DNA of 42,290 nucleotides from Candidatus Komeilibacteria bacterium CG_4_10_14_0_2_um_filter_37_10 (GTDB lineage Bacteria > Patescibacteriota > Patescibacteriia > UBA1558): the NCBI GenBank assembly GCA_002793075.1, contig PFPO01000046.1:1-42290 (forward strand), in the 5' to 3' direction. Position numbers and translations under genes: made by a program. Below the pieces are notes generated by a model. That model did not search any database, was not told the DNA's origin, and saw nothing but the letters and a program-made list of their open reading frames with translations. This document shows positions 531 through 42,290 of the stretch, piece after piece (within the stretch, counting starts at the first letter, position 1; each line of letters opens with the position of its first letter).

Positions 531-642
531 GCACGATAAGACATGCGGGTTTGAAGCTAGCGCTGGAATCAGGGCATAAGATAATCAGGGGATCAGGAAA
601 ACGGGTTAAAGAGAGGGCGTGACAAAAACGGGATGCGGATTG

Positions 643-671
643 TTGGCAAATGATGACTTTTTTAGTATAAT
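643..671 (+). promoter_or_regulatory. Promoter of the VirB6-like gene
   Basis: TTGGCA (643-648), a 17-base spacer and a perfect TATAAT (666-671) predict transcription from about 678. This lies inside the longer open frame that begins at 619, so the true start codon must be downstream; ATG 748 fits. Confidence 0.7.
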
Positions 672-710
672 ATTATTGTTCAGAACAATTAATTTTAAAC
701 ATCTGTCTAT

Positions 711-747
711 TTTGGCTTCAGCCAAATTTACGCGTCTAGTGAGACGC
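711..747 (+). promoter_or_regulatory. Two hairpins in the leader, the second touching the start codon
   Basis: TTTGGC-TTCA-GCCAAA (711-726) and GCGTCT-AGTG-AGACGC (732-747) are perfect 6-bp hairpins. The second ends at the base before ATG 748. There is no Shine-Dalgarno sequence, so the folded RNA may set or limit initiation. Confidence 0.5.
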
Positions 748-3700: not shown

Positions 3701-4989
3701 TCTCCCTAAAGAATAAGGTTGCTAGCGGCGCAGTAACAGGCAAGGATACTACCTATCATGAATTTGGTCATGCCTTAATAGAAAAGAATGATCCGACAGG
3801 GCAGGTGCAAAAAGATTTTTGGAATAGCTTAACGCATGATGATCAAGCAAAGGCTAAGCAGCACATTGAGCAAACACGCGGTAAAGCTAACTTTGCTAAG
3901 ATGAACGAGCAAGACATTGCTAAGGAGTACTTTAATGATGCTTTGGTGAATGAAACCAAACCCGGTGGCCCGGCCACTGATCAACCGCGATTACCCGAAA
4001 GTATGAGGAAGAGAATTGAAGTAGGTACTAGTACTGTGCCAATGGCTGAAAAGGCCAAGAGTTTCTTGGAGCGACGAGCTGAAAAAAATGACTATAAGCA
4101 AGAACAAAAGAAGGCTAGTAATTATGACGCCGAGCAACATGAAAAAGAGAAAGCTAAATATTATGATAAGGTTGAGCAAATAAATAAAGTACGGTCGGAA
4201 CAACAGCAAACCAATGTGACAAGTGCTAAGAAAGTGACTGATTATAATGACAATAGTCGTGGTGCCTCGGCCATTGCCTCGGCCCTGCGAACTGACAAGA
4301 GTATCAATCCTAACGATTTGCTGGGCATTCAAGGATTAGAAAAGATTAAAGGAATATTGAAAAATAGCGGTGCTGTTAGTAATGATTTGAATTTAGAATC
4401 TGTCGCTCAAGAGTTACAAGAAAGCATTAAAGCCAAATCCGAGAGTGCCGGCGGTCAGCTGACTGGGCAAGATGCTTTTAAAGATCTGTTAAAGCAAAGT
4501 AGTGATTATGCAAAATTTGCCGCAGATGAGGTTAAAGTTAATCAACTGTCAAACCAGGATTATGATAAAGAGATTAGTAGTCTTTCAGCTAAGGCAGCTA
4601 AGGATAAAACAAAATTGGATAGTCAGGCGCAAATGAACAAAACTTTTCAGTCTCAACAGCAAACCGAATCGACAGCTGCCGAAGAAAAGAAAGAAACTAG
4701 GGCCAGCACCAAATCCGACACTAAGGGTAGTACCCCAGAGATTAATATTGATTTGAGTGGCACGGAAAAAGGACTTGAGGATATTAAAAATGCCACTAAG
4801 GATTTAGGTAAAGACACTACGGGCATGGGCAAGGACATAGCTGACAGTATTAGACGTGGCAGTGAGACAACGGCTAGAAGTCAGAATACGAGAAACTTTG
4901 TGGATTTTATGCGCGATAAGAAATTAAATAAGAAGATGGATCAAATCAATAAGAATAGTCAGACTGATAAAACGAAAGATAAAAAGTAA
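748..4989 (+). CDS. VirB6/TrbL-like membrane protein with large soluble tail containing HExxH
   Basis: The 1413-residue product starts with a hydrophobic export segment ending near PNLAYA. Several membrane segments follow over about residues 25-350, including a VRIVTLWILIVLSPLAY-type stretch and a GKFSAYSSTWWKKF loop typical of VirB6/TrbL-like channel proteins of type IV secretion systems in CPR bacteria. After an Ala/Gly-rich linker, the remaining ~1000 residues are charged and soluble. They contain YHEFGHAL (H1004-E1005-x-x-H1008), a zinc-metallopeptidase signature, and 52 residues later an acidic EYFNDAL (E1060) that could supply the third ligand. The C-terminus is low-complexity and Lys/Gln-rich. 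I chose ATG 748 rather than the upstream frame start at 619 because the promoter at 643-671 lies between them. Whether the tail is an active peptidase, and whether a full secretion system exists, cannot be seen from this window. Confidence 0.75.
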   Translation: MFSQKRNQVILASLLLLVFLIVPNLAYAGIGAFVNSIVGWLGSLLLQFIGMIITLVLAVLTNVASFNDFIYAPAVVTGWVLVRDVCNMFFIVMLLIISIATVLGIDSYSYKNTLKKLIYMAVLINFSKTISGFLIDVSQVVMLTFVAAFQDMLAVGFIEAFKINNMLSQTTTIDPNSGEETASDNLTISLGIIFSVVIAFILLLVLIAMTVMLVVRIVTLWILIVLSPLAYLFSAIPGKFSAYSSTWWKKFSEQLVFGPALAFFLWLTLSVVAQSGNNFSDAKDYVSQTAGNGILSNTNYILQYMIGLAMLIIGMNTAKEMGGAAGQMGGKAFAGMKGLSQKGAKMLGSGASRLGEATTRGGLNLANKVGGGFAAGGTMQLAKTVLNDRKQMRKDKSAAKWTDRLDKMGFKDKSYQALGDMAQKWDDKGQRIKTTALRGGTSGVAAMAGTAALGGGALSIAGAFAAPVAAGYVATNAIFGKNSAFRAAVNKKNAARKNAEDKRKEVGNGVLKNSGLVFDKDNAIKPGAAGVMYGDEDFTKRDMPTQEKDWQREYTARVDDVKGAKNLSQAKDKQMTLNRFIEGAAWQMKTNPTKSTALKEAWDNTISKDSRYVADEKLRDIDDADDIKDEFGNGKLSSNTSVDVSKIKTSKSDYLKDKDIERANNTAEQLASGENIEGIVGTEVKNSAGIGGWKIEKLEADNVIISNGQGVTETMKKEDFVRENAPAMADNFYGKEYNKLSEVEKQDILSPAEYDKFAKQQPLSYDGVTMGSLKNDQRPENIIAAVSMDKLNERTGMNLQGVGAHLRGEEALVAARGMKGMISEQKEDLQTASTNKDLGIALRNFGITVPHGKDGKEVDLLQMREQAQELYNTPGSGEEKMKKVTDLEKKQVAYDKVQAKHDEHQQYEYMINQGMDLGAEGQARYEATTLSAEEQEILKSGSLTPEEKKVLDNDPRKNVIYQQLIGADNAVKTLSDEEYVANNGISLKNKVASGAVTGKDTTYHEFGHALIEKNDPTGQVQKDFWNSLTHDDQAKAKQHIEQTRGKANFAKMNEQDIAKEYFNDALVNETKPGGPATDQPRLPESMRKRIEVGTSTVPMAEKAKSFLERRAEKNDYKQEQKKASNYDAEQHEKEKAKYYDKVEQINKVRSEQQQTNVTSAKKVTDYNDNSRGASAIASALRTDKSINPNDLLGIQGLEKIKGILKNSGAVSNDLNLESVAQELQESIKAKSESAGGQLTGQDAFKDLLKQSSDYAKFAADEVKVNQLSNQDYDKEISSLSAKAAKDKTKLDSQAQMNKTFQSQQQTESTAAEEKKETRASTKSDTKGSTPEINIDLSGTEKGLEDIKNATKDLGKDTTGMGKDIADSIRRGSETTARSQNTRNFVDFMRDKKLNKKMDQINKNSQTDKTKDKK

Positions 4990-24560: not shown

Positions 24561-27500
24561 ATGCTATTAGGCAAAGAAGAAGTTTCTCCATATTCAAGTA
24601 GTTCAGTTGAGGTTAAAAAACAGACCGACGCAGAGAAAGAGCAGATAAAGAAAATAGCTGCTGATTTTTTATTAGCCACTGGAAATAGTAAATTATCGAT
24701 TGAGCAGAAAGCTTGGCTCGAGCAAGAAGTGGCCGGCGAGCAGAAAAAATATTTAGAGCAACTGGCGACAATAGATCAGGATATTGATTTATTGTCCCAA
24801 CAAGAAGCTGGTGGCTATGGATACAGTGAGTATAGTAGTGAGGAAGCTAAGAATATTATTAATTCATCAGTCCCACAGATAGTTGGCGCTTTTCAGCTCA
24901 AGGTTGAGGAGCTAGCTAGTACTGTGCATAATTTACAAAAACAGGAAGTAGCTTATCAAGAAAGAGGTGCATTGACGCATTTAGAAAGAGATCCCCAATA
25001 CCAAAGTTATTATCATTATTATTCACAAGAATTGCAGAAAGATCCGAAAAAATTTTTACAATCTGATAAGTTTAATTTTACTACCCAAAATTGGGACGGT
25101 TGGAGTTTACCCGACGATCTATTGCGCCAGGGAGTTAGCAATGTGCTAGTGAGTAAACAACGAGAATTAGAGCGGGGTATTAGTAATGGACAAGTAACAA
25201 AAGCAACAGAAAAATTAGCCATCCTGCAAGCAGTTAATGGCTGGCTGGATAGTTTAAAGCAATTAGCAGAGCGTCAAGAAATACTTAATGCTCCTGAGCG
25301 AAACAACGAAAGTTTAAAAACAATTGATCAAGACTGGCTACGTTTAGAGCAAAAATATCAGGAAACTAAGGAGTATGTGCATGATAAAGTGCTGGACCCA
25401 GAATATTTGCGGGAATTTGATGACGCCTTAGTTGAAGAGTATCAAATGGTTATCAGGAAGAAAGAAGAGAAGGTTAAAAAAATAAACAAATCTTGGCAAC
25501 AAGAAGCCAAAGAAATTCTTAACTCAACCCAGTTGCAAGAGCGTCAGCAGAAGTTAGTAACGGATGTCCAGTTATTATTTGCCGATTTTGCAGAATTTCT
25601 CGAAATACAAAGCAAGGCAGTTGATAGTGCTACGAAAAATATTGAACAAGGAAAATTAGCTCAAGCCTTTTCTGAACAAGTTCAGAGTAGTAAAACAGTA
25701 GACTCAATGATTTCTTGTTTGGAGTTTATTAATGACGAAGCTTTAAAGAACAAAGAGAAAATTATTCAAAAAATTAAATTTTTATTTGCTCCCGAACGTA
25801 TGATCGCTGAAGAGCTCGCACAAGTGGGTGAGGAGAAGTTACTGCGAGGTATTCCTAATGACTTTGGTATTCGTGAGCAGGTTTTGGATCTATTAAAAAA
25901 GAAAATTGGTTCTGGTGAAATTAAAGAAGGGGAAGAGCTGGTTATCGGGGAAGCGGGGAATCAGGAAATCAGGGAATCAGGTCATCAGGATATCGGGAAG
26001 TCAGAGGATCAGGAAATCAGGGAAACGGGTAATCAGGAAAGTAGTACGCTAGTGAATCAGGAAATCGAGGCAGCTGGTGATACAGCAGACAAGACGCAAA
26101 ATATGGAGCAGGTAATTGATCGAGAAGACAAAAATTATCAAGTATTAAGTTTAGTAATTGAGCAAGCAAAAATATTGATTGCCGAGAATCAAAAAAAATA
26201 TAGCAGTAGTGATTATTTTAACAAGAAAGATTTGCTAGCTAAGTTAGAAGCTATGAGTATGTCCAGAAAGCAGGCAGAGTGGGCTCTTAATCAGTTAAAG
26301 AGGCAAAGCATACTGGATGTGCAAGAGGTAGTAGGCAATAAGCCAGAGCAAAAATTTTATCGTTGGCGGTTAACTGGTCAGGAGTTAGTTAAACCCGTTA
26401 GAGAATCAGGGAGCCAGGAAATTGGGGAAACGGGAAATCAGGAAATCGGGAAATTAGAGGATCAAAATGTTGGGGAATCGGGAAAGCGGGAAAATAGTAC
26501 GCCAGAGAATCAGGAAATTGGGGTATCAGGAAAGCAGGAGACCAGGGAGTCTGGCAATCAGAGTAGTGAAGTGCCAGATAAAAATAACTCGGCCTTAGAA
26601 GTTGTGAAACCAGAACAACAAAATACTGCAGAAATACCGCCGGTTGCAGCAGTGGAATATCAAAAGTTTTTAGATTATCCGGAAGTGCAAGCCTTTTTGG
26701 AAAAGTTGCAATGGTCAGATTTAAGTGATCCAGTAAAATTAAGAAAAGAGCTGGAAACTGTTTTTAGTAATGTCAAATTATATGCGGAAACAACCAATGC
26801 GGAAAAATTCTCTGCTGGCTTTATTGATAAGTATTTAGAAAATATATATAGTCGAACCACTCTCTATTTACAACAAAAAGTGGCGGAACAAAAAAATCAA
26901 TCATCCAGTTTATCCAAATTTTTTAGTCGGGAAGGTAAAAAGTTTGGTTTAGGTGTGACTGGTGGCGCTGTTTATGCCAGTTGTCGTTTAGCTATTGCCG
27001 GTGCAGTTAGTGTCTTTACTACCGTGACTACCCCAATTTCATTAGTTATTGGCGGTCTAGCCGGCGGCGTTAACGCTGTAATTAACGATGCCACAAAAAA
27101 GATTTGGCACAAAGATCAGGCTCAGCAAATTTCTACTTTACTCAAAAAAGTAAAAAATAAAAATCAAGAATGGCCAGAGTTAAAACAGCAAATCACGGAT
27201 ACGCTTGGTGAATTATATTTACATGATTGTCGTTGGACAGAAGATTTAAGTAAAGTTTATGAAATAGACGAGGACTATCAGAGGTATTTAAATGAGCGGT
27301 TAAAAAATGGTGAGGTTAATTTGAAACCAGAGCAGTATGGTGTTCGTATTAGTGAAAAAGGCGACGAGCAATTATACGGCCTAGCGGCCATTAATATTGC
27401 CAAATTAGCACAATCATCTTGGCGCATAAATTTGGGTTATCAACAAGACAAAGATAGTCAAGTGAGAAAACAAAAAGATGCTCAAGAAAGACAAGATTTA

Positions 27501-30500
27501 TTAAAAACAATGATTGCCACCGGTGAATTGGAAGTTTATTTTACTTATCAGCTGGAGAAAACGATTAAGGAATTGAAAGTTAAAATCGGTACTGTACCAC
27601 CAGAGCAACAAGTTGATTTGGAAAAACAAATTGTACGTGACGCGCAATTAATGGTAGAAAATCAGATGAATGTTTTATTGGGCGATGTCATGACGCAAGA
27701 AAAGATAACAGGTTCTACGGATGGTGAGAAAAGTATTTTTCGGGACAGTTATTTAGCAAAGTTGTGGCAAGATGGTGAAAAATATCAGTCACTGGGTATG
27801 GTTAAGAAATTTGCTGGTGGTTTTGCCAGTGGTGCCGTTGCTGGCATGGCTTATTCCAATATTTATGCCGGTAGTATTTATGGTGCCTTGATGAAATTTA
27901 GAAGTACCATGCGCTCGGAACTATCACAGATGACCAGGCAGGAAATAATTAAAACTGCTGGCGAATTATACCAGAAGATAAATGGTGCTATTGGGAATAT
28001 TGAAAATTATAATCAGGAAGAAGTTAAAAATATTATTACTGAAACCAAAGCCCGTATCAAGCTACCAGACATCAAAGAGCACGAACGTATCTTATTAGAA
28101 AATGGTATTGATAAATTGCGTACTAAATTTGCGCGCTCGCAAGCACTAGGGCAAATAACACAAGAAACAACACTGAGCTTAGAGGCCATGGCCAAGAGTA
28201 TGGTTGGTGGCAAAGAAGAGCAAGACAAAATAGCTCGGGATTTATTAAAGAGAAATAAAAAAGCCGGCAACATTGTTCAGTTGTGTCAGAAATTTGGTCA
28301 ACTCTCAGCGGAAACTAAATTCAAATTGCTCGGTAAGGCATTAGTTGAGGGTATGAAGGGTGGCGCAGCCTTTGCTTTGGGCGGTGGTTTGGTTAGCTAT
28401 TTTGGTGGTGCTGTGGGTATTATGCCAGAAACCGGATTTGATCAGGTGGTGAACAGAACTATCAACGGCGCGTTTCTAAATTTATCAATAGTTGGCGGTC
28501 AACACAGTGGAAATGTTGAAAAGTCAGAGCATCAGGTTGCCGGGGAACCAGGAAATCAGGAGAGCGGGGAAGCAGGAGATCAGGGTATTGGGAAACCAGA
28601 GCGTCAGGAGATCGGAAAATCAGAAGATCAGGTTACTGGTGAATCAGCACCAAAGCATCAAGAAATGACTTTGGCGATTGGAAAAGACGGTAATTATCAA
28701 CACGGCGATCAGGGTTTTAGGCATTTGATGGTAGAGGCAGCACCGAAAGAAATATATCAAGATGGCGTAGTAGATGCTAAAGACGCTGCATATTTAGAGT
28801 ATATGTTGGCGGTAACCAGAGAATTAGCGCAGGGACACCCAGTAGCTGGCTTTGACCCGCAGGCGGTACAAGAATTTGTGACTTTTGATGGTAAAGAAAT
28901 ACATATTAGTGATTATCAAAAATTTGAAACTTTTATTCAAGGTGATTTATTTCATCGTGCGGAGAATGTTATTACCGACCGCAGCGATGTTTTTGCTTAT
29001 GTTGATGACACCAGTCAAAAGGTTTGGCGGAGTGCTTTTGCAGAAAAAGGTGCGAATATTGTGGTCGAGGACTTTTCTCAGGATGCCAGAGTTATTGCTG
29101 CTGAACAACGAGTTGATCAGCAAAATGAAGTAGTCCGAGATTATCAGCAGCACTTTAATCAAATACCACACCAAGGCAACATTGAGGTTGTGTCAGGATC
29201 GGGTAGTACGGAAGTTAAATTAGTAAATGGTCAGGAAGCTTATAATTTTAAAATAGAACACGGTGTGGTGACGGCTTTTAATGGACAAGAGTTACCCAGC
29301 TCCGTTAGTCGCACCGAAGATTTGGTGCAAGCTGTTAATCATAATTTATTGATTACTCATCAAATACCTGAGAATAAGATCGTAAGCTATCAGCAAGTAG
29401 CAGAAAAACTGGGAGTTATTAACCCCGGTCACGCTTTTGTTGATCCGGGCGATGCTAAATTATTACAGTACATTGAGGGAACAACGGCTTTCAAATCAGA
29501 ACAAACAGCACCCTATCAGCAAGCGGAAATTAGAGATTTGGCTAAGGATATTATTGTCACGGACGGTGATAAAGTATTGCAATACGTGGATAATACTACC
29601 AATCATTTCTCGGATCCAAAAACAGTAGCCGCTTTTTCGTTGGCGGAGCTGCGAGAGTTTGGCTCGGAGCACTCGGCAGAATTAACAAGCGCTGTTCGTG
29701 ATGGTGTGGTTGATCAAAATTTAACCCACGCACAATTGTTATTAAATTTACATCAGCAAAGCAGTGGTCAGTTATTAACCAACTCCATTGTCGATAGCAA
29801 TCCAGAGTCATTGCAATTGATGTTACATAATCAGGAAATAAATTTAAATCAAGCAGACAAAATTCAGCAACTAGAAAATAAAGTTACCAGTAGTTTGGAG
29901 TTGTCGGCTGATCAAGTATCGCAACAAGCTCTCTATGATTTACAAAAAGCCCATATTACCGTTGAGGTGCCAGCTAGTAATGAGATAAAGATTAATTTAC
30001 CTAGCGATCTAAACGCCCATGATTTACTGCCGAATGGCGGTGTATTAATCATGGAAAAAGTTGGTGGTGAATTGCAACTGCATCTGGAAACCAGCAGTAA
30101 TAAGTGGCTAGACTCAGAAACAAGTACATTTGTGCCAAAAGATTTTTGGCAGCAAGCGGATGAACAAACAATGATTAATCACTTTCACAATTTGGTAGGT
30201 AAAGAGATTATTCAGAATAAAATGGCCAGTGAATTAGAATTAGCCCGACAAGAACAAGGTATTTTTAGTATTTTGACTATTGATCTCGACGCGCGCTATG
30301 ATCGGGGATTTAATAAATTAAGCGCCGGCGATGTTTTAATAAGTCAAGAAAATTTTGTTCAAGGCATGAATGAATTCGGCCGGGCCAATAGTTTGCCAGT
30401 CACGGGCCAAGAAGATAATTTAATAGATCAGTATCAAATTATTCATAAGTATTTAACAGGGGGAAAAACAGAGTTGATTAACGAGAATATGAATAATTAT

Positions 30501-31100
30501 TTAACGCATCATCAGCCACAGCTCAGTGAGGATGTTAGGCATTATTTGGGTCGGATGGTTGGTGAGGTGTCGTCAGGCGTATTGCCAGAGTTAAAAAGTA
30601 ATGAACCAGTTTCAGAATTACCAAACCTGAAAGATATTATACCCACCGGCGAGTTACCAGATTTGCACCAAACCAATGATGTGAAAATAGGGGAGTTGCC
30701 GTTACTCAAAGAAGATGGTAGCGGTCAAAAAGAGGAAAAAACTACCACCATTAATGATGCTGACAAAAAAGCGACTATTCACGAGAGTAAAGAGGTGCAA
30801 GGTAATACGATTATTGAACGCTCATCAGTTGAGGCACAAATGAATGGTGCGGTTATTAGTAAATATTATAACGAAGTGCGGCACGACGTGCTCAGCAAAG
30901 AAATTGACTCTTTGGATGATTGGCGAGATAAATTTTCGGAAATCAAAAAAGAATATACGGGCAATGGTGAACTAACGCCCATGGAAAATAAATCTTTGGA
31001 ATTATCTTTCAAGAGTATTGAAAAAGGAGGTTCATTTGTCGAAGATAAAATCAGAATGGATGTAACAGCGATGTTGTCGCGGTGGAATAAAAAAGAGTAA
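24561..31100 (+). CDS. Giant 2179-residue protein with hydrophobic segments and QEIG-type repeats
   Basis: Family not recognised. The order is: Gln/Glu/Lys-rich coiled-coil region (1-450); octapeptide repeats of the form EI(R/G)E(S/T)GNQ (about 460-505); a winged-helix-like stretch (about 520-610); a second repeat block (about 613-670); a Gly/Ala-rich hydrophobic segment (about 792-850); coiled coil; further hydrophobic Gly-rich segments (about 1085-1115 and 1263-1290); a third repeat block (about 1320-1360); and a long soluble C-terminus with repeated FVDPGDAKLLQYI / VTDGDKVLQYVDNTT-type segments. There is no N-terminal signal peptide, so most of it may be cytoplasmic or anchored by the internal segments. 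It probably forms a structural or surface-associated complex; function unknown. A bidirectional terminator follows. Confidence 0.75.
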   Translation: MLLGKEEVSPYSSSSVEVKKQTDAEKEQIKKIAADFLLATGNSKLSIEQKAWLEQEVAGEQKKYLEQLATIDQDIDLLSQQEAGGYGYSEYSSEEAKNIINSSVPQIVGAFQLKVEELASTVHNLQKQEVAYQERGALTHLERDPQYQSYYHYYSQELQKDPKKFLQSDKFNFTTQNWDGWSLPDDLLRQGVSNVLVSKQRELERGISNGQVTKATEKLAILQAVNGWLDSLKQLAERQEILNAPERNNESLKTIDQDWLRLEQKYQETKEYVHDKVLDPEYLREFDDALVEEYQMVIRKKEEKVKKINKSWQQEAKEILNSTQLQERQQKLVTDVQLLFADFAEFLEIQSKAVDSATKNIEQGKLAQAFSEQVQSSKTVDSMISCLEFINDEALKNKEKIIQKIKFLFAPERMIAEELAQVGEEKLLRGIPNDFGIREQVLDLLKKKIGSGEIKEGEELVIGEAGNQEIRESGHQDIGKSEDQEIRETGNQESSTLVNQEIEAAGDTADKTQNMEQVIDREDKNYQVLSLVIEQAKILIAENQKKYSSSDYFNKKDLLAKLEAMSMSRKQAEWALNQLKRQSILDVQEVVGNKPEQKFYRWRLTGQELVKPVRESGSQEIGETGNQEIGKLEDQNVGESGKRENSTPENQEIGVSGKQETRESGNQSSEVPDKNNSALEVVKPEQQNTAEIPPVAAVEYQKFLDYPEVQAFLEKLQWSDLSDPVKLRKELETVFSNVKLYAETTNAEKFSAGFIDKYLENIYSRTTLYLQQKVAEQKNQSSSLSKFFSREGKKFGLGVTGGAVYASCRLAIAGAVSVFTTVTTPISLVIGGLAGGVNAVINDATKKIWHKDQAQQISTLLKKVKNKNQEWPELKQQITDTLGELYLHDCRWTEDLSKVYEIDEDYQRYLNERLKNGEVNLKPEQYGVRISEKGDEQLYGLAAINIAKLAQSSWRINLGYQQDKDSQVRKQKDAQERQDLLKTMIATGELEVYFTYQLEKTIKELKVKIGTVPPEQQVDLEKQIVRDAQLMVENQMNVLLGDVMTQEKITGSTDGEKSIFRDSYLAKLWQDGEKYQSLGMVKKFAGGFASGAVAGMAYSNIYAGSIYGALMKFRSTMRSELSQMTRQEIIKTAGELYQKINGAIGNIENYNQEEVKNIITETKARIKLPDIKEHERILLENGIDKLRTKFARSQALGQITQETTLSLEAMAKSMVGGKEEQDKIARDLLKRNKKAGNIVQLCQKFGQLSAETKFKLLGKALVEGMKGGAAFALGGGLVSYFGGAVGIMPETGFDQVVNRTINGAFLNLSIVGGQHSGNVEKSEHQVAGEPGNQESGEAGDQGIGKPERQEIGKSEDQVTGESAPKHQEMTLAIGKDGNYQHGDQGFRHLMVEAAPKEIYQDGVVDAKDAAYLEYMLAVTRELAQGHPVAGFDPQAVQEFVTFDGKEIHISDYQKFETFIQGDLFHRAENVITDRSDVFAYVDDTSQKVWRSAFAEKGANIVVEDFSQDARVIAAEQRVDQQNEVVRDYQQHFNQIPHQGNIEVVSGSGSTEVKLVNGQEAYNFKIEHGVVTAFNGQELPSSVSRTEDLVQAVNHNLLITHQIPENKIVSYQQVAEKLGVINPGHAFVDPGDAKLLQYIEGTTAFKSEQTAPYQQAEIRDLAKDIIVTDGDKVLQYVDNTTNHFSDPKTVAAFSLAELREFGSEHSAELTSAVRDGVVDQNLTHAQLLLNLHQQSSGQLLTNSIVDSNPESLQLMLHNQEINLNQADKIQQLENKVTSSLELSADQVSQQALYDLQKAHITVEVPASNEIKINLPSDLNAHDLLPNGGVLIMEKVGGELQLHLETSSNKWLDSETSTFVPKDFWQQADEQTMINHFHNLVGKEIIQNKMASELELARQEQGIFSILTIDLDARYDRGFNKLSAGDVLISQENFVQGMNEFGRANSLPVTGQEDNLIDQYQIIHKYLTGGKTELINENMNNYLTHHQPQLSEDVRHYLGRMVGEVSSGVLPELKSNEPVSELPNLKDIIPTGELPDLHQTNDVKIGELPLLKEDGSGQKEEKTTTINDADKKATIHESKEVQGNTIIERSSVEAQMNGAVISKYYNEVRHDVLSKEIDSLDDWRDKFSEIKKEYTGNGELTPMENKSLELSFKSIEKGGSFVEDKIRMDVTAMLSRWNKKE
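25940..26090 (+). repeat. 24-bp coding minisatellite, block 1 (blocks 2 and 3 at 26400-26570 and 28520-28640)
   Basis: In-frame 24-bp units such as GAAATCAGGGAATCAGG plus seven more bases encode EIRESGHQ-type octapeptides. The same GGGAATC/GATCAGG wording appears between genes at 225-262, 560-610 and 33333-33362. Confidence 0.6.
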
Positions 31101-33979: not shown

Positions 33980-35590
33980 ATGACTACCAAAGAAAAAATT
34001 CAAATAATTATCCAGCGGGCAGTGCAGAAAATATCATGGCCCCCAGATGTGTCATTAGAAATTAATTATCCCAGCAGTATTAACTTTGGTCATTACAGTT
34101 GTAATATTGCTATGATTTTGGCGCGTTCCTTAAAGAAGTCACCGCAAGAATTAGCTCAGGAGCTAAAGACCGAGTTATTAAAAGACCAGGAAGTGCTAAC
34201 GACGTTTAGTAAAGTAGAGGTTGCGGGACCCGGGTTTCTTAACTTTCACTTAAGTACTAGGTATTTAGAGCAGGAATTGTTAGCTATTAATAAGCAAAAA
34301 GCTAAATATGGCCAAAGTAAGTTAGCAAAAAAAGAAAAGGTAATGATTGAATTTATTTCTGCTAATCCTACAGGTCCTTTGACGCTAGCCAATGGCCGCG
34401 GTGGTTTTTGCGGTGATGTACTGGCCAATGTGCTGCAACGATGTGGCTACACTGTTAGTCGAGAGTATTATATTAACGACGCCGGCAACCAGATTGTTAC
34501 TCTCGGTAAGTCAGTATTGGCTGCGGCCAAGAAAATTCCTGATGATGAAAGCTATTATCACGGTGAGTATATTAAGGATTGGTTGCAGCAGCGGCAGTTA
34601 AAACTAGATAACTATCTCAATAAACCGGAGGAGTTAGGACAAAAGGTGGCTGAAGATATATTTACTCAATCAATCAAACCAGTAATTAGTTCCGGCATGA
34701 AGATTGCTTTTGATCGTTATTACTCAGAGTATCAAGAATTACATCAAAAAGATCAGATTAAAAAAGTATTAACTTTGTTAAAAAAGAGTGGTCATGTTTA
34801 TCAGTCGGAGCAGGCTTGGTGGTTTGCCAGTACCAAGTTTGGTGATGATAAGGATCGAGTACTATTAACCGCTGATGAGCGGCCAACATATTTTTTGGTT
34901 GATATCGCTTATCATCTGGATAAAGCGCAGCGGGGATTTAATAACATGATTGATATCTGGGGCGCTGATCACGCTGGCTATGTGGCTCGTCTGAAGTCAG
35001 CCGTGAAAGTTATCCAACCGCAAGTTCAGCTGGAAGTAATTATTATGCAATTAGTGCGACTAATATCCGGCGGTAAAGAGTTTAAGATGTCCAAACGGCA
35101 GGGTACTTACGTAACGATGGATTATTTGTTAAAGATTTTACCACTGGATGTTGTGCGTTGGTTTTTTGTTATGTATACGGCCAATACTCATTTTGATTTT
35201 AATCTTGATTTAGCCAAAGACAAGTCGGAGAAGAACCCAGTTTATTATGTCCAATATGCCCATGCTCGCATTAGCAGTATTATCCATAAAACCGCGAAGC
35301 TGAAAATTAATAAAACCAGTTTGTCCGATGCGGAAGCTGAGGGCCTTTATTTACTACTGCGCTGGCCAGAATTACTTAAAGAGATAGGGGTAACTTGGCA
35401 GTTGAATTTGATAACCTCTTACCTCTTAGAGCTGACAAAAAGTTTTCATCAATACTACCAAGCTTATCGGGTTATGGAAAACGATGAGGTGGCCAGTCAC
35501 AGACTGAATATCGTTAAAGGCTATCAAATAGTACTCGCTGACCTGCTAGCAACTTTGGGTATATCGGCGCCAGACAAAATGGAAAAATAA
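33980..35590 (+). CDS. argS: Arginyl-tRNA synthetase
   Basis: The 536-residue class I synthetase has an N-terminal Add-1 domain (SSINFGHYSCNIAMILAR), a Rossmann catalytic core, KMSKR (369-373, in FKMSKRQGTYVTMDYLL) and a C-terminal DALR anticodon domain (YVQYAHARISSI). The HIGH motif, usually PTGPLHVGHGRG, reads PTGPLTLANGRG: both catalytic His are replaced (TLAN, 135-138). All other core blocks, including REYYINDAGNQI and WGADHAGYVARL, are intact, so the enzyme is probably active and the substitution lineage-specific. It charges tRNA-Arg with arginine. Confidence 0.94.
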   Translation: MTTKEKIQIIIQRAVQKISWPPDVSLEINYPSSINFGHYSCNIAMILARSLKKSPQELAQELKTELLKDQEVLTTFSKVEVAGPGFLNFHLSTRYLEQELLAINKQKAKYGQSKLAKKEKVMIEFISANPTGPLTLANGRGGFCGDVLANVLQRCGYTVSREYYINDAGNQIVTLGKSVLAAAKKIPDDESYYHGEYIKDWLQQRQLKLDNYLNKPEELGQKVAEDIFTQSIKPVISSGMKIAFDRYYSEYQELHQKDQIKKVLTLLKKSGHVYQSEQAWWFASTKFGDDKDRVLLTADERPTYFLVDIAYHLDKAQRGFNNMIDIWGADHAGYVARLKSAVKVIQPQVQLEVIIMQLVRLISGGKEFKMSKRQGTYVTMDYLLKILPLDVVRWFFVMYTANTHFDFNLDLAKDKSEKNPVYYVQYAHARISSIIHKTAKLKINKTSLSDAEAEGLYLLLRWPELLKEIGVTWQLNLITSYLLELTKSFHQYYQAYRVMENDEVASHRLNIVKGYQIVLADLLATLGISAPDKMEK

Positions 35591-35668
35591 TCATCGGTGT
35601 GGATAACTGTATCATGATTCATTGTAGCCGATAGTTGAAAATGTTAATAAAGTTTGTTCTAATATAAT

Positions 35669-35727
35669 TATCGGATAGAGTAAATAGATCCGATATTAAG
35701 AAAATAGCGGGATTCTGCTATTTTTTT
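35669..35727 (+). terminator. Inverted repeat and intrinsic terminator after argS
   Basis: TATCGGAT (35669-35676) and ATCCGATA (35688-35695) form an inverted repeat. Next to it AAAATAGC (35701-35708) pairs with GCTATTTT (35717-35724), continuing into T-rich sequence, a typical terminator. Confidence 0.65.
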
Positions 35728-35751
35728 ATTTTATCCAATAATAATTAATCG

Positions 35752-35799
35752 ATATCGGTTCTTACCGATATTGCTACGGTGGCTGTTTTTTGCTATAAT
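35752..35799 (+). promoter_or_regulatory. Promoter of the giant surface gene with overlapping palindrome
   Basis: TTGCTA (35771-35776), a 17-base spacer and perfect TATAAT (35794-35799). The palindrome ATATCGGT-TCTT-ACCGATAT (35752-35771) reaches into the -35 box and shares TATCGG/CCGATA with the repeat at 35669-35695 and with the leader stem, so it may be an operator. Confidence 0.6.
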
Positions 35800-35805
35800 A
35801 TGATT

Positions 35806-35963
35806 AGATTGATATTGGATATTCTGATTGCTCAAAGGCCCTCGCAGCATGATAGAATATCCGATATCTCTGTATATAGCACCGCAAATATGCGGTGTAT
35901 ATCAGCGGATAATTCTTACCCTTTGATATACGCCTCATAAGGCAGAAGTAAAAGCTAGTCCCC
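35806..35963 (+). promoter_or_regulatory. Structured 5' leader, possible riboswitch or autoregulatory RNA
   Basis: A 15-bp stem, GATATTGGATATTCT (35811-35825) with AGAATATCCGATATC (35854-35868, one G-U), encloses a small hairpin whose loop has TCAAAGG (35832-35838). A second hairpin CACCGCA-AATA-TGCGGTG follows (35880-35897). CCTTTGA (35920-35926) can pair with the first loop over 7 bp as a pseudoknot, and GCCT-CATA-AGGC (35932-35943) lies near the start. I do not recognise a known riboswitch class. Confidence 0.5.
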
Positions 35964-38900
35964 ATGCCAAACAACCCGCAGTCACAAGTTGACCCGGTAG
36001 AGCGAGATATTGATGATAATTATTTATCACTCGCCCAAGCCAGCAAATATTGTAACTACTCGCAGGAGTATTTGTCTTTGCGCTGCCGACAAGGTAAATT
36101 AGTCGCTAAAAAGATTGGTCGTAACTGGTTTATTCACCGATCTTCACTGAGCAGCTATGTGGCTGAGAATGCCATTAGCTACAAGGGCAATAAGAAAGAC
36201 GAGCTATTTGCCGATCGCTTAGTTGATGACGCGATCAATACCGAGGTTGTAAATAAAATTAGTCAGCTTAATCATAGCTTACAAAGAACTACTTTCAGTT
36301 TAGCTAAAACAAACGAGATTTCTCATTTGGCTAAAACGCAAAGTAGTTTTTTTGATCTTTATAAAATTTTGACTAGCAAAATAGCTTGGCGAAAGGCAAT
36401 TGCCAGCTTTACACTTCTGACTTTACTTTCTTCTTCGCTGTATATCACACCAGCGGCGGCCGCCAGTTACAGCGAAGATCTTTCCAGTTTTGTTCGAGCC
36501 GCCAAAAAAGAAACTCAAGCTGTGGCTCAGACAGTCACAGCTTGGGGCAAAGCCAGCAAAGAGAAATTAGCTCAGTACCCGATTCTTAAACCAGTGATTG
36601 ATTTGGCGGGCGCTAAAAATAATTTACGCAGCACGATCGCTAACTGGCAAGGATCAGTAGCGGAAAAAAAGCAGGAACAAAAAAATACCGGTACTGTTGT
36701 CAATCAGCAAGCTTGGGAAATAGCTAAAAATAAAATTAATAGTTATTGGCAATTACTACAGCTGACCGGTGAAGGATCAGTAGTCGCCAAAGCAAGTCTC
36801 GACTTTAGTCAATTAGTAGCTACCGATACCCTCAGTAATGACGTTGCTGTATTTTATCAAAAGATAAAAAAGAACAACCTAGCACTAGCTGCGCAGACGC
36901 TGGATAATTTAAATTTTGCTTTTGCTGATTTGATTGATAGCTATCAGCAGTCAATGCAATTTCGTGTCGCGAGAATAGACAGTCTGACCAATCAATTCGC
37001 TACCGGTCCACGCGTAGCTGGCGTGACAGCAAACTCTGATGAAAATAACAAATTATCCGCAGCCTCTTTCTGGCGGAATATTTTTGGTGCGGTAGGACAA
37101 GATCTAAGAACTATTGGTACCACGATTCGCGTAGCGAAACAAAATCTAATTTACGGTTCTAATAAAGTGGTTTGGGATTTTCGTAATCTTTCTACCACTA
37201 CCCAAGATAATCTATCCCAAGCTGGCCAACGTTTGCAACGGGGACTGCAAATTTTGACACAGCATAGTTTTAGTAAGTTAGCTTCGCAACTGGAAACAAC
37301 CCGTTACCTAGCAAGTAATTTGAAAACCACTATCTTTGGTAGCAAGAAAGCAGCCAACCGTTTGGTGCTGGAACCGTATTTGGAAAATTTTGTTAACCCC
37401 GATGGCAATACTGCTACTTCGCAACAGCTGACTCAGTCGCTAGCTACTCAGCCAGGACTACTTGATCAATGGCTGAAAGATTTATCGTTAACCTTAAATC
37501 GCGTACCAGGATTGGCTGGCCGCGATGGCAAAGACGGACAACCTGGTAAGAATGGCAAAGATGGACAGCCCGGTAAAGATGGCAAGGACGCTCAACAAAT
37601 CGGATTGGATAGCAATAACCGTTGGACTGGCAGTAATATCTTCGAGAACCACGTTATGAACAATACGCAGAACGTTACTAACATTTTCAGTTCCAATATA
37701 TCTTCCGCTGCCGATCTAGTGATTAATAACAAACTAACCGTTGGTGATGGCGAGCCTAATGATCGATTAACCATTAATGCTAATTCTACTTTTAATGGCA
37801 ACGTAGTTATCAGTGGCGAATTGAACGCTACGAATTTGCATACACCATACAGCCACGTCATCACGGTAGCTAAGGGCGGTGGTGACTTCACAACTATCAA
37901 AGACGCTTTAAACAGCATTCATGATAATGTCAGTTCGGTAGTGGCGATTACTTCAGCTAATGGTCGCCTGTCGGATGTTACTTTTAGCAGTAGCCGATTA
38001 GTTGAAGATTATACTATTACCTTTACCTCGGGTACGGAATACTCAGTAGTTGGTTCTGTTTCTGGCGTTGAAGGAACTGGTACCTTGGGAACCGACTTTG
38101 TTTCTACTTCGGGTAAGCTGAGTATTCCCGCCAGTAATTTTGCGGGCAGTTGGTTGACAGGTGATGTCGCTACTATTTCTACCCAAGCTAGCCGTACACT
38201 CATTGTTGTGATGCCCGGCACTTATACGGAAGCTTCGCCATTGGTCATGAAAAGCTATGTGGACATTAAGGCCTATTCCTCAGACTGGCGTGATACTATT
38301 ATCAAAAATGGTTCAGATACTAATTTGATAACTGCTGCCGACGTCAGTAGTGTAGCGGGATGTACTTTGCAGCTAGTGGGGACTACTGCTTCTGCCCGCT
38401 CCCTTGTTGACGTTGGTAGTATGAACTTTTTATTAATTAACAATAAACTGCTTTACGAAGGCACAACCGCTGGTTATGGCGCTAGTATTACTACTGGCAC
38501 CTTAACTGTTGATGGTGGCGAGATGTCGAGCAGTGGCTTAGCACGGGCTATTTCTTTAACGGGTGCTGGGCAAGTAAATATTTGGAATAATAAATTATCA
38601 ACCACCACCGCAGATTTGTATGCTGACGCTGGTACGATTAATTCTTTTTATAACCGACTGGAGGGCAGTGGTAACAACGTGCAAGTAGCCAGCGGCGCTG
38701 TTATTAATTCCCAAAGTGATTATTTGGATAGCACCAAAATTGTTTCTACGGGTCGCTTTAATCGTTTAGGTCAAGCTAAAAACACTTTGGTAGTAAGTAC
38801 CGGACAAAATGGTGATTTTAATAGTATCACCGAAGCGTTGGCGGAAATTAATCGTCGAGCTGATGCTGCTGCGGCCAATCCCTACATCATCGAAGTATTA

Positions 38901-41537
38901 CCCGGAGTCTATAACGAGGCCATTACCCTGTTGCCTTATGTTGATGTGATTGGTGTTGGCGGTGAACTCACTACTAAAATTACGCAAGTTGATGCTGATG
39001 TGGTAACCGCCGCGAGCAATGCCAAACTGTCGGGATTCACTTTAGAAATAACAGCGGCCACAGCAGCTCGTTCACTGGTTAATATTGCGGCCACCTCACC
39101 AACAATTGACCAGATTAAATTGGTTTATAGTGGCGGTACTAGCGGTTATGGCTTTTATATCACCACGGGCTCACCACGAATCAGTAATGTTTTAGCGAGC
39201 GGCGCAGCACTAGCGCGCGGTATCTGGCAAAGCGGTAATGGCACAACCACTCTAGAACATTCAGCTATTACTTCAGCCACGGATGATATTTTAGCGGAAG
39301 GTGGTACGATCAATTCTTATTTCAATGTTTTGAATGGTAGTAATAATTTTAATATTGCCCTGGGCGCCACCCTTAATTCTGGTAATGATATTTTTGATAG
39401 CAGCAAAGTTAGCTCTAGTGGTACATTTGCTCGTTTAGGCGAACCAGCTAACACTATCTATGTAGCCAAAGGACAAGCCGCTCACTACAACACCATTACC
39501 GAAGCACTGAACGCCATTACTAGCGCGACGGTTACCAACCCCTATGTGATTAAAATATTCCCTGGCGTTTACAATGAAGCAGTGACACTCAAAGAGTATG
39601 TTGATGTGGTGGCCATTGGTGACGTCCATAGTATTATTATTAAACAAACTGATAACCCGGTAATAACTGGGTCTTCTAACAGCACATTAAAAGGTATGAC
39701 TCTGCAACTTGAGGGTGATACTACCGGTAAGGCGGTTGTGAGCTTGGGGACTAGCTCAACAGTGTTAGAAGATCTAGTTATCATCGGGACCAGCAATGTA
39801 TCTACTGGCATTGCGGTCAGTACTGGCTCGTCAACTATTGAGCGTACAAATATTTCCAGCGTTGCTTATGGCGTGAATCATTCCGGCGCCAGTGGACAGA
39901 CCACTCTGCGTAATAGCACGATCGTTGCCAGTACGGATGATATTTATATCAGTCAAGCCGGCGGTCAAGTACTATCTTATTTTAACCGGTTAAGCGGCAG
40001 TGGTAATCATTATCACACCATTGCCGGTACTACTTTAAAAGCAACCGGTGATATTACCACCACGACGACAGAAAATATTGTTAGTGGTACTACCGCGCCA
40101 GACTTTTTCCGTACCGGTCATATCATTCCATTGGAAAATAATATATTTGATTTGGGCGATGCGACGCATATTTGGCGCAGTGTTTATACAACGAACATAG
40201 TTTCACCTGGTGGTATTTTGGGAACAACGGCAGAAAATTTTGTTTTGAACACGGATAACGCTACCGCCGATAACGAAGCCATGAGTTTGGTTTTTGAAAG
40301 AGGAACGCTGACACCCAATGCTATATTGGGTTGGGATCAAATTAATGATCGTTTTACTTTTAATTATCCGATTAGAATAACTGATGGTGATGGCAGTGGT
40401 TCAACCTCGATTACTACGGACAGTATTAATTTGACGGTGGCCACGTATAATACCACCGGCGCTGCTGACCTCAACGTTATTTCAGCTAATGCTTTGAATT
40501 TAACTGGTGGAACTTCTCTGACAGCATTGGCAACAACCGGCGCTGCTAGTTTTGGCGCAGCAGCTGGCAATACAACTATCTCAGCCGGTGGCGCAACTTC
40601 CGACCTTACCTTAAACGCCGGCAGAAATCTCGATATGAACGCAGTTGGTAACATCACTGTGGATGGCGTTAACTACACGCTAACTACAACTGGTACAACT
40701 GGTGTAGATAGTACAGGCACGGTTACTGTGGATTCAGATACTAATGTTAATCTTGGTGGGCAGAAGATATCTTTAACAACAGATGGTGGCACCCTGGCTG
40801 ATGGGGAACTGGACTTTACCTCATCCGGGAACATCGACATTAACGCTAACGATACTATCTCTATTGATGGCACCACATTTAACATCACAACTACGGCTAA
40901 TTACTTAGCGACCATTGGTGGTAGTTATGGCGTTGATGCAGTTGGCGCCATTACGATGGACTCCGATTCCAATGTGGTAATTGGTGGTGCTGGTATCAGC
41001 ATGACTTCTGATGGTGGCATCTTAGCAATACAAGGCGATGGTGTTAGTCATTTGGATGTTATAAATACAGGCGGCGCCATTGATATGGACAGCGCTACTT
41101 TGACAGTAGATACAACTTCCAATATGTCTTTGAGTGCTGCTGATGGTTCAGTAACTGTTCAGGCCGGTGGTGCGACAAATGGTGATATGAATTTAACTGC
41201 TGCCGACGATTTCGTTCTTAATGTAACCGGTACCGGCAATATTGATTTTGGCGAGAATATTACTTTTGATGTGAATAACACGGGTACTTTTAGTTTAAAT
41301 ACCAACAATGGTGCTCTTTCCATCCAAGCAGGTGGATTAGTTAACGGCGATCTTAACCTGACAGCTGCCGATGCCCTGACTCTCACTTCTGCGGGCCTGA
41401 CTACCATGGATGTTAATGGTAATTTAGTCATCGACACTGAAGGCACAACCGCTATTACTTCGCTGGGTAACTATGGCTTAACAGTTAAGGGACCGGTACA
41501 TATATTGCCCAAACTACAAATGGTGCCTTTACCTTAA
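35964..41537 (+). CDS. Giant surface protein with N-terminal helix-turn-helix; frame broken near 41505
   Basis: The 1857-residue frame has, in order: an excisionase/MerR-like DNA-binding domain (19-67: YLSLAQASKYCNYSQEYLSL...GKLVAKKIGRNWFI); one hydrophobic segment (146-165) ending in PAAAAS; a helical region; a short collagen-like run of eight G-X-Y triplets (about 519-545); three beta-helix repeats each opening like VAKGGGDFTTIKDALNSI (about 631, 941 and 1166); a tail-fibre-like ENNIFDLGDATHIWRSVY (about 1390); then long Gly/Thr/Asp-rich beta repeats. A helix-turn-helix inside the cell joined through one membrane segment to an external adhesin-like part is the simplest reading. A frame change at about 41500-41505 ends the frame early at 41537; the repeat continues in another frame. 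Confidence 0.8.
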   Translation: MPNNPQSQVDPVERDIDDNYLSLAQASKYCNYSQEYLSLRCRQGKLVAKKIGRNWFIHRSSLSSYVAENAISYKGNKKDELFADRLVDDAINTEVVNKISQLNHSLQRTTFSLAKTNEISHLAKTQSSFFDLYKILTSKIAWRKAIASFTLLTLLSSSLYITPAAAASYSEDLSSFVRAAKKETQAVAQTVTAWGKASKEKLAQYPILKPVIDLAGAKNNLRSTIANWQGSVAEKKQEQKNTGTVVNQQAWEIAKNKINSYWQLLQLTGEGSVVAKASLDFSQLVATDTLSNDVAVFYQKIKKNNLALAAQTLDNLNFAFADLIDSYQQSMQFRVARIDSLTNQFATGPRVAGVTANSDENNKLSAASFWRNIFGAVGQDLRTIGTTIRVAKQNLIYGSNKVVWDFRNLSTTTQDNLSQAGQRLQRGLQILTQHSFSKLASQLETTRYLASNLKTTIFGSKKAANRLVLEPYLENFVNPDGNTATSQQLTQSLATQPGLLDQWLKDLSLTLNRVPGLAGRDGKDGQPGKNGKDGQPGKDGKDAQQIGLDSNNRWTGSNIFENHVMNNTQNVTNIFSSNISSAADLVINNKLTVGDGEPNDRLTINANSTFNGNVVISGELNATNLHTPYSHVITVAKGGGDFTTIKDALNSIHDNVSSVVAITSANGRLSDVTFSSSRLVEDYTITFTSGTEYSVVGSVSGVEGTGTLGTDFVSTSGKLSIPASNFAGSWLTGDVATISTQASRTLIVVMPGTYTEASPLVMKSYVDIKAYSSDWRDTIIKNGSDTNLITAADVSSVAGCTLQLVGTTASARSLVDVGSMNFLLINNKLLYEGTTAGYGASITTGTLTVDGGEMSSSGLARAISLTGAGQVNIWNNKLSTTTADLYADAGTINSFYNRLEGSGNNVQVASGAVINSQSDYLDSTKIVSTGRFNRLGQAKNTLVVSTGQNGDFNSITEALAEINRRADAAAANPYIIEVLPGVYNEAITLLPYVDVIGVGGELTTKITQVDADVVTAASNAKLSGFTLEITAATAARSLVNIAATSPTIDQIKLVYSGGTSGYGFYITTGSPRISNVLASGAALARGIWQSGNGTTTLEHSAITSATDDILAEGGTINSYFNVLNGSNNFNIALGATLNSGNDIFDSSKVSSSGTFARLGEPANTIYVAKGQAAHYNTITEALNAITSATVTNPYVIKIFPGVYNEAVTLKEYVDVVAIGDVHSIIIKQTDNPVITGSSNSTLKGMTLQLEGDTTGKAVVSLGTSSTVLEDLVIIGTSNVSTGIAVSTGSSTIERTNISSVAYGVNHSGASGQTTLRNSTIVASTDDIYISQAGGQVLSYFNRLSGSGNHYHTIAGTTLKATGDITTTTTENIVSGTTAPDFFRTGHIIPLENNIFDLGDATHIWRSVYTTNIVSPGGILGTTAENFVLNTDNATADNEAMSLVFERGTLTPNAILGWDQINDRFTFNYPIRITDGDGSGSTSITTDSINLTVATYNTTGAADLNVISANALNLTGGTSLTALATTGAASFGAAAGNTTISAGGATSDLTLNAGRNLDMNAVGNITVDGVNYTLTTTGTTGVDSTGTVTVDSDTNVNLGGQKISLTTDGGTLADGELDFTSSGNIDINANDTISIDGTTFNITTTANYLATIGGSYGVDAVGAITMDSDSNVVIGGAGISMTSDGGILAIQGDGVSHLDVINTGGAIDMDSATLTVDTTSNMSLSAADGSVTVQAGGATNGDMNLTAADDFVLNVTGTGNIDFGENITFDVNNTGTFSLNTNNGALSIQAGGLVNGDLNLTAADALTLTSAGLTTMDVNGNLVIDTEGTTAITSLGNYGLTVKGPVHILPKLQMVPLP

Positions 41538-42290
41538 CTGCTGGTGGCGCAACATCTGACCTTACCTTAAACGCGGGCCGTAATTTAGATTTCAACGCCG
41601 TTGGTAACATCACTGTGGATGGTGTGAACTACACCCTCACTACAACCGGTACCACTGGCATAGATAGTACGGGTACTGTCACGGTTGACTCAGACACTAA
41701 TGTTTCACTTGGCGGGCAGAAGATATCTTTAACAACAGATGGTGGCACCTTGGCTTCGGGGGAACTGGACTTTACCTCATCTGGGAACATCGACATTAAC
41801 GCTAACGATACTATTACTATTGATGGCACCACATTTAACATCACAACTACAGCTAATTACTTAGCGACAGTTACTGGCACCTATGATGTCGATGCGACCG
41901 GTGCCATTACCATGGACTCGGACGCATCTGCTACCCTATCTGGCGCTGGTGTTAACCTGCTCTCCGATGGCGCCCATACTCTTACTTTAACCTCAGCTCA
42001 AGACATCGATGTTAATGCTGCCACTAACTTTACCCTGGACACAACAGATGGCAGTATTGCTTTACAAGCCTCCGGTGCCGTAAATGGCGACATCTCTTTA
42101 ACAGCAGCAGATAACTTTGTCTTAAATGTGACCGGGACTGGTGACCTGGACTTTGGTGAGAGCACAACACTTAATGTCAATGGCACGGGCACCTTAGCTG
42201 TTAACACTAATGATGGCGCCATTACTATTCAATCTGGTGGCGCTGTTAACGGCGATCTTAATTTAACCGCAGCCGACGCTCTCACTTTAA
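41507..42290 (+). CDS. Continuation of the giant surface gene in the shifted frame (runs off window)
   Basis: From 41507 the frame reads AQTTNGAFTLTAGGATSDL and stays open to the window edge (784 bases, no stop). It repeats the preceding block almost word for word (ITVDGVNYTLTTTGTTG, GGQKISLTTDGGTLA, FTSSGNIDINANDT). No start codon or ribosome site fits, so it is the rest of the upstream gene, not a separate one. Equivalent bases of the two copies are 956 bp apart (40590 and 41546), which is 954 (318 codons) plus 2. An extra AT in the ATATAT at 41500-41505 would explain the shift. Confidence 0.75.

Follow-up and report, generated by a model that had tools for sequence, protein, structure and literature searches.

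Patescibacteria are a very large and mostly uncultured group of organisms thought to live on other cells by way of their surface, and to our knowledge little is known about how that surface is controlled. Several described systems bring together some of the elements considered here. In ToxR and CadC the sensor ectodomain is small and the helix-turn-helix (HTH) domain belongs to a different family from the one at this locus, and RodZ combines an N-terminal HTH and one membrane helix with a domain outside the cell. Transmembrane transcription regulators (TTRs) such as ToxR and CadC are single-pass, one-component proteins that combine an HTH in the cytoplasm with a domain outside the cell and act on promoters while embedded in the membrane (PMC10269533, PMC6320335). 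The repeats bound by BldC are AATTCGGAC-like and vary in number, and the protein has been crystallised on CAATTCGGACAATTCGGACA (PMC5859096). Giant surface proteins of CPR bacteria, for example those of Vampirococcus lugosii, are very large membrane proteins thought to form a fibrous, host-contacting surface (PMC8080830); a search of the text of that paper for a helix-turn-helix returned no mention.

The protein joins a predicted HTH, a membrane segment and a fibrous region

The original prediction for the window (the whole stretch of DNA analysed, 42,290 nucleotides) was of a gene behind repeated TATCGG/CCGATA palindromes, whose product carries an N-terminal HTH, one membrane segment at residues 146-165 and an adhesin-like repeat region. 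All of these elements were recovered (Table 1), with the palindromes and the leader stem lying exactly where they had been placed. The 3' end of the gene had to be revised, since position 41537 is not the true end of the frame: the same repeats carry on in a different frame up to the contig end, which indicates a frameshift near 41490-41500, and the repeats are still running at position 42290, the last base of contig C46. The shift at 41490-41537 may be a real mutation, an assembly error or a programmed frameshift.

Table 1. Features of the surface-protein locus in window coordinates.
Feature	Position	Strand	Basis or remark
argS (arginyl-tRNA synthetase), upstream neighbour	33980..35590	+	Pfam, reading frames
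DnaA-box consensus TTATCCACA	35598..35606	-	sequence
Inverted repeat of site, TATCGGAT-N11-ATCCGATA	35669..35695	.	sequence
Terminator-like hairpin (intrinsic type) and T run after argS	35697..35728	+	sequence
Inverted repeat ATATCGGT-TCTT-ACCGATAT, abuts -35	35752..35771	.	sequence
Predicted promoter TTGCTA-17-TATAAT, TG before -10	35771..35799	+	consensus match only, 10/12
5' leader hairpin, arms are site copies	35811..35868	+	sequence, fold z -4.34
HTH-membrane-surface protein gene	35964..41537	+	nominal ORF end; real frame broken near 41490-41500
Winged HTH (HTH_17; Xis/BldC type), residues 20-70	36021..36173	+	Pfam, AF2, Foldseek
Single membrane / signal-anchor segment, residues 146-165	36399..36458	+	hydropathy
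P-A-A-A-A-S, possible signal-peptidase I site, residues 163-168	36450..36467	+	sequence
Collagen-like G-x-y stretch, residues 516-543	37509..37592	+	Pfam, sequence
Right-handed beta-helix domain, three repeats (37836-38759, 38760-39416, 39417-40040)	37836..40040	+	structure model, Foldseek
Repeat region continued in another frame	41538..42290	+	runs off contig end

The N-terminal domain was matched by Pfam to HTH_17 (residues 20-69, E 8e-6), scoring 33 bits in the genome scan (cut-off 27 bits) and 26.4 bits, just below it, for the whole protein; HTH_17 was the sole HTH matched, and RodZ's HTH_25 had no match in the protein. AF2 likewise modelled a winged HTH (pLDDT about 86-89), with the recognition helix at residues 34-42 and the beta wing at 48-58, while the remainder of the 250-residue model was of low confidence. 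The best full-domain Foldseek matches were Pukovnik Xis (4j2n, 1.3 A over 47 columns), RdfS and BldC-DNA, and RacA-DNA was also present among the structural matches, the E-values never falling below 0.001 because the query was mostly low-confidence. A search by sequence for relatives of solved structure returned no real ones.

In the outer region, the collagen-like stretch precedes beta-helix repeats of ~210-300 residues each. The second repeat was modelled with a pLDDT of 87.5 and was most similar to pectin methylesterase (E 4.5e-6); phage tailspikes also appeared among the matches, at lower rank. Judged by these fibrous domains, the outer part fits a surface fibre or adhesin with a putative adhesive role.

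Collagen-like, Ig-like (Big) and Peptidase_S74 matches, reminiscent of trimeric phage tail fibres, occur in the outer regions of relatives (L084, L080, L061, L024, L020); Big and Peptidase_S74 are above the cut-off in L084, and the collagen and F5/8C matches in other relatives are weaker. The window holds two other giant frames, at 24561-31100 and 619-4989 (2179 and 1456 aa), for which Pfam gave no match and whose starts have no TATCGG in the preceding 300 bp.

The architecture recurs across the phylum

Relatives of the N-terminal 250 residues were found in 10 of 35 genomes searched (a count that includes the window's own genome and three with short Fic-type frames), as well as in named Patescibacteria, Ca. 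Nealsonbacteria among them. The order of HTH, membrane segment and repeats, sought in CPR genomes, recurs across the phylum: the HTH profile was present in 52 of 380 genomes sampled phylum-wide and in 81 of 196 genomes of the order to which genome G356 belongs, and in each of 39 long frames the HTH is followed by a hydrophobic segment, which is strong (1.6 or more) in 34 and is joined by a second segment of that strength in only three. Each protein has one or two HTH copies, several relatives carrying a tandem pair. We found no description of this architecture in Patescibacteria in the open-access literature searched. A phage origin was rejected, no confirmed HTH relative having been found in viral contigs.

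Small HTH-membrane genes (about 127-360 aa) adjoin giant ones at several loci (L108, L084, L086, L089, L090; G420:C3, G486:C54, G522:C11), and the same HTH type stands at the C-terminus of proteins named Fic-like from their sequence (L026, L027, L028, L091, L092, L093). Within the window's order, a start context of TAGTCCC(C)-ATG or AAGCTTGTCAAT-ATG is kept (window 35950-35963; L020, L021, L022, L024), and an obvious Shine-Dalgarno sequence is absent before the start codon.

In the window protein, the most hydrophobic 19-residue stretch beyond the HTH spans residues 146-164 (hydropathy 1.38), and the flank charges of +3 inside and 0 outside agree with a single N-in segment. Most relatives have a stronger segment, and the one here could just as well be the core of a signal peptide before P163-AAAA-S168. 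Release of the HTH by signal peptidase, which had been proposed alongside tethering, is plausible only in some clades: A-x-A-like ends are seen behind the segment in the argS-linked clade of the window, G001, G010 and G016 (P-AAAA-S, S-AAA-E, P-QALA-Y and P-EAMA-H), and partly in family f4, but are absent in most others. In most relatives the segment is longer and looks uncleavable, so that cleavage is probably not how the family works in general. We therefore regard as rather doubtful a reading in which signal peptidase cuts after the segment, the surface part is freed or otherwise anchored, and an HTH-membrane stub or released HTH regulates, although the just moderately hydrophobic segments of the window and G010 and the stand-alone HTH-membrane genes beside giant ones speak for it along with the A-x-A-like ends. 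For the window's own clade, the cleavable signal-like segment leaves room for such a stub regulator.

A short DNA site is conserved at the gene

Upstream of the window gene, the last base of the second inverted repeat is the first base of the predicted -35 at 35771, and transcription would begin at about 35806. The terminator-like hairpin sits between the first and second palindromes, and together with the T run after argS suggests that the surface gene is transcribed separately. The leader stem (arms 35811-35825/35854-35868) holds a degenerate ATATTGGATA at 35812-35821 in arm 1 and ATATCGGATA at 35858-35867, on the - strand, in arm 2. Over the whole window, TATCGG is in weak excess (21 vs 13.2 expected, reached by 5 of 100 shuffles), and ATATCGGATA has a single copy in the whole genome, at this gene.

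Word counts in the upstream regions of relatives yielded the same site de novo. TATCGGAT/ATCCGATA emerged upstream of 23 of 49 genes vs 0.57 expected, and the core ATCCGA lay in 40 of the 49 regions vs 5.6 expected, ranking first among 180 words of equal composition (median 3). TATCGG was present in 30 of 31 upstream regions of a second set, drawn from G356's order, or 27 of 28 new ones, as L100, L102 and L105 appear to repeat L016, L018 and L017 of the first set. TATCGGAT reaches a density of 2.6/kb upstream vs 0.05/kb in ORFs, about 50-fold. It had been set down beforehand that palindromes not conserved upstream of orthologues would count against the original prediction; they are conserved there, and the prediction survived. 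The neighbours of the gene differ between groups (argS in G001, G010 and G016 as in the window, an ftsW/rodA-like gene in L016-L019), which indicates that the sites travel with the gene.

Pattern searches of whole genomes place the strict site ATATCGGATA at the gene in several groups. All copies in G000 (1), G001 (3) and the single-contig G010 (3) are upstream of it, the sole copies in G453 and G457 are at the locus, and G016 has 8 of its 11 copies there, with eight sites in the argS-gene gap and gene start. The strict 10-mers are mostly off-locus in G109, G056 and G356, and show no locus specificity in most of G356's order, where the site flanks vary. Searches for the gene in G006, G012 and G015 found none, and there every copy is inside an ORF; the other off-locus copies examined are also in coding frames, except one intergenic copy each in G056 and G356.

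The sites occur in both orientations (34/28), with recurring spacings of 10, 12 and 21-23 bp. Counted from predicted promoters and starts, and by permutation tests that ignore kinship, they concentrate at -5 to +25 (23 vs 8.1 permuted) and at -75 to -45 (16 vs 7.1 permuted) of the predicted start. It is very improbable that the repeated TATCGG acts in RNA, as a leader hairpin. The window leader does fold well and G001 has a similar arm pair, but some sites form direct repeats or lie ahead of the -35, and both orientations are found, all of which fits DNA better than RNA.

A DnaA box, TTATCCACA, also recurs upstream of the gene (L099-L128 and others), mostly in one orientation and with its centre some 49 bp ahead of the predicted start (18 at -54 to -44 vs 1.5 permuted); the window's own box is reversed and farther upstream than in relatives. 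This recurrence suggests DnaA-linked, perhaps cell-cycle-timed, expression. Anchoring of the replication origin, an idea prompted by the box, was rejected because in G010 the gene lies 3 kb into the contig, whereas dnaA is found at 207 kb and a cluster of four boxes at about 768 kb.

The HTH probably reads the site upstream of its own gene

Variation in the site follows variation in the HTH. Recognition helices of the SQEYL type pair with ATATCGGATA and those of the HQDYL type mostly with ATCTCGGATA, so that the variable base (ATA vs ATC) is C in 11 of 14 H-type but 1 of 20 S-type cases (Fisher p 1e-5, uncorrected for kinship). Sites are present at 20/20 genes with core HTHs, 13/15 with intermediate and 10/14 with divergent ones. 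Some of the small genes that encode a standalone HTH are preceded by them too, as is one Fic-HTH gene (L038/L092, with TTAATATCGGATAGG 16 bp ahead of its start), while most Fic-HTH genes are without them, and none was found at the genome's other HTH_17 gene. The DNA in the BldC crystal, CAATTCGGACAATTCGGACA, strikingly resembles the present site. On this evidence, the short word upstream is probably read by the protein's own HTH, though a different regulator could be the binder.

Whether relatives retain DNA-binding residues, a point on which the original prediction also depended, received a divided answer: the recognition helix is strongly conserved, but differs from BldC's known base contacts. 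When the recognition helices were aligned by hand, the base-contacting Lys26 and Arg30 of BldC fell on Glu35 and Leu39, so the reading code must differ from BldC's; this mismatch concerns BldC in particular and not the HTH_17 group at large. The same mismatch lends something to a view in which the HTH reads no DNA and is the RodZ-like, protein-binding cytoplasmic foot of an envelope protein, with the sites serving another regulator. The RodZ-like order of HTH, membrane segment and outside domain and the position of the gene after an ftsW/rodA-like gene in one group are in keeping with such a foot. We consider it decidedly unlikely, because site variants track HTH variants, sites fade as the HTH diverges, some standalone HTHs and a Fic-HTH have the site when the other HTH_17 gene does not, and the domain matches HTH_17 and not RodZ's HTH_25.

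A likely membrane-tethered autoregulator

Taken from sequence and structure models, the likely role of the protein is that of a membrane-tethered one-component autoregulator, with a surface fibre as its outer part and sites at its own promoter as its target. The giant surface protein would be single-pass, N-in/C-out, with a sequence-specific winged HTH of the Xis/BldC type as its cytoplasmic N-terminus. This HTH would bind sites of the form A(A/T)T(A/C)TCGGATA surrounding its own promoter, several copies perhaps cooperatively, as the repeated sites, the tandem HTHs and a possibly trimeric ectodomain suggest, and the protein would exert its effect on the promoter while in the membrane. With the sites at about -75 to -45 and -5 to +25 occupied, transcription would for the most part be repressed or tuned, the sign of control that we favour because sites lie just downstream of the -10, and the amount or engagement of the fibre would thereby feed back on its own synthesis. 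The conserved architecture, the locus-specific site and the tracking of site and HTH variants are strong comparative evidence for the membrane-tethered self-regulator of the original prediction, with self-binding, membrane retention and signalling as its putative properties. Against it stands the demand that a membrane-bound regulator must stay in contact with its own promoter.

Contact between membrane and gene is itself the core of a serious rival, in which the HTH is a DNA anchor and not a regulator, holding the gene or nucleoid at the membrane below the surface protein and thereby allowing transcription, translation and insertion of a very long product to happen in a single spot. Such a transertion-like arrangement has a precedent in the proposal made for Vibrio T3SS2 (PMC9977878). 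The single-pass protein with its giant ectodomain, the site clusters found at the gene alone in G000, G001 and G010, the eight sites at the G016 locus and the RacA-DNA structural match all suit an anchor. We nevertheless judge it unlikely, as anchoring alone would not require the sites to keep preferred positions with respect to the promoter, and the HTH-membrane module is also found in proteins of about 128-180 aa that lack a large ectodomain.

An extension of the autoregulator model, which we offer tentatively and believe only possible, is that the fibre is sensor and regulator at once, engagement of or pull on the ectodomain (for example by host contact) altering HTH occupancy at its own promoter, possibly with DnaA-set timing. 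If true, host-dependent bacteria would have a one-protein contact switch across the phylum.

Comparison with known systems

The pairing of regulator and site is phylum-wide and locus-specific, and is testable with a domain of roughly 80 residues and roughly 200 bp of DNA. Should the autoregulator model hold, one-component membrane regulators would extend to giant structural fibres as their outer part. By its domain order, the protein fits the TTR definition (PMC10269533): like TTRs, it has a DNA-binding domain and a membrane segment in one chain, predicted to lie N-in. In contrast to ToxR and CadC, it appears to expose a fibre or adhesin at the surface, encoded by frames that reach about 5,900 aa, and its conserved target is the very gene from which it is made. 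With BldC, Xis and RdfS it shares the predicted fold, and BldC's AATTCGGAC-like repeats are close to A(A/T)T(A/C)TCGGATA. Those are small soluble proteins, however, whereas here the HTH is fused to a membrane segment and a giant ectodomain, the sites are often inverted and the base-contacting residues differ. RodZ differs in its HTH family, and in the present gene a conserved DNA site accompanies the protein. The proteins of Vampirococcus lugosii are similar in being very large membrane proteins of the surface. What appears to be new is the combination of an Xis/BldC-type HTH, the protein's own promoter as conserved target and a giant surface-fibre ectodomain.
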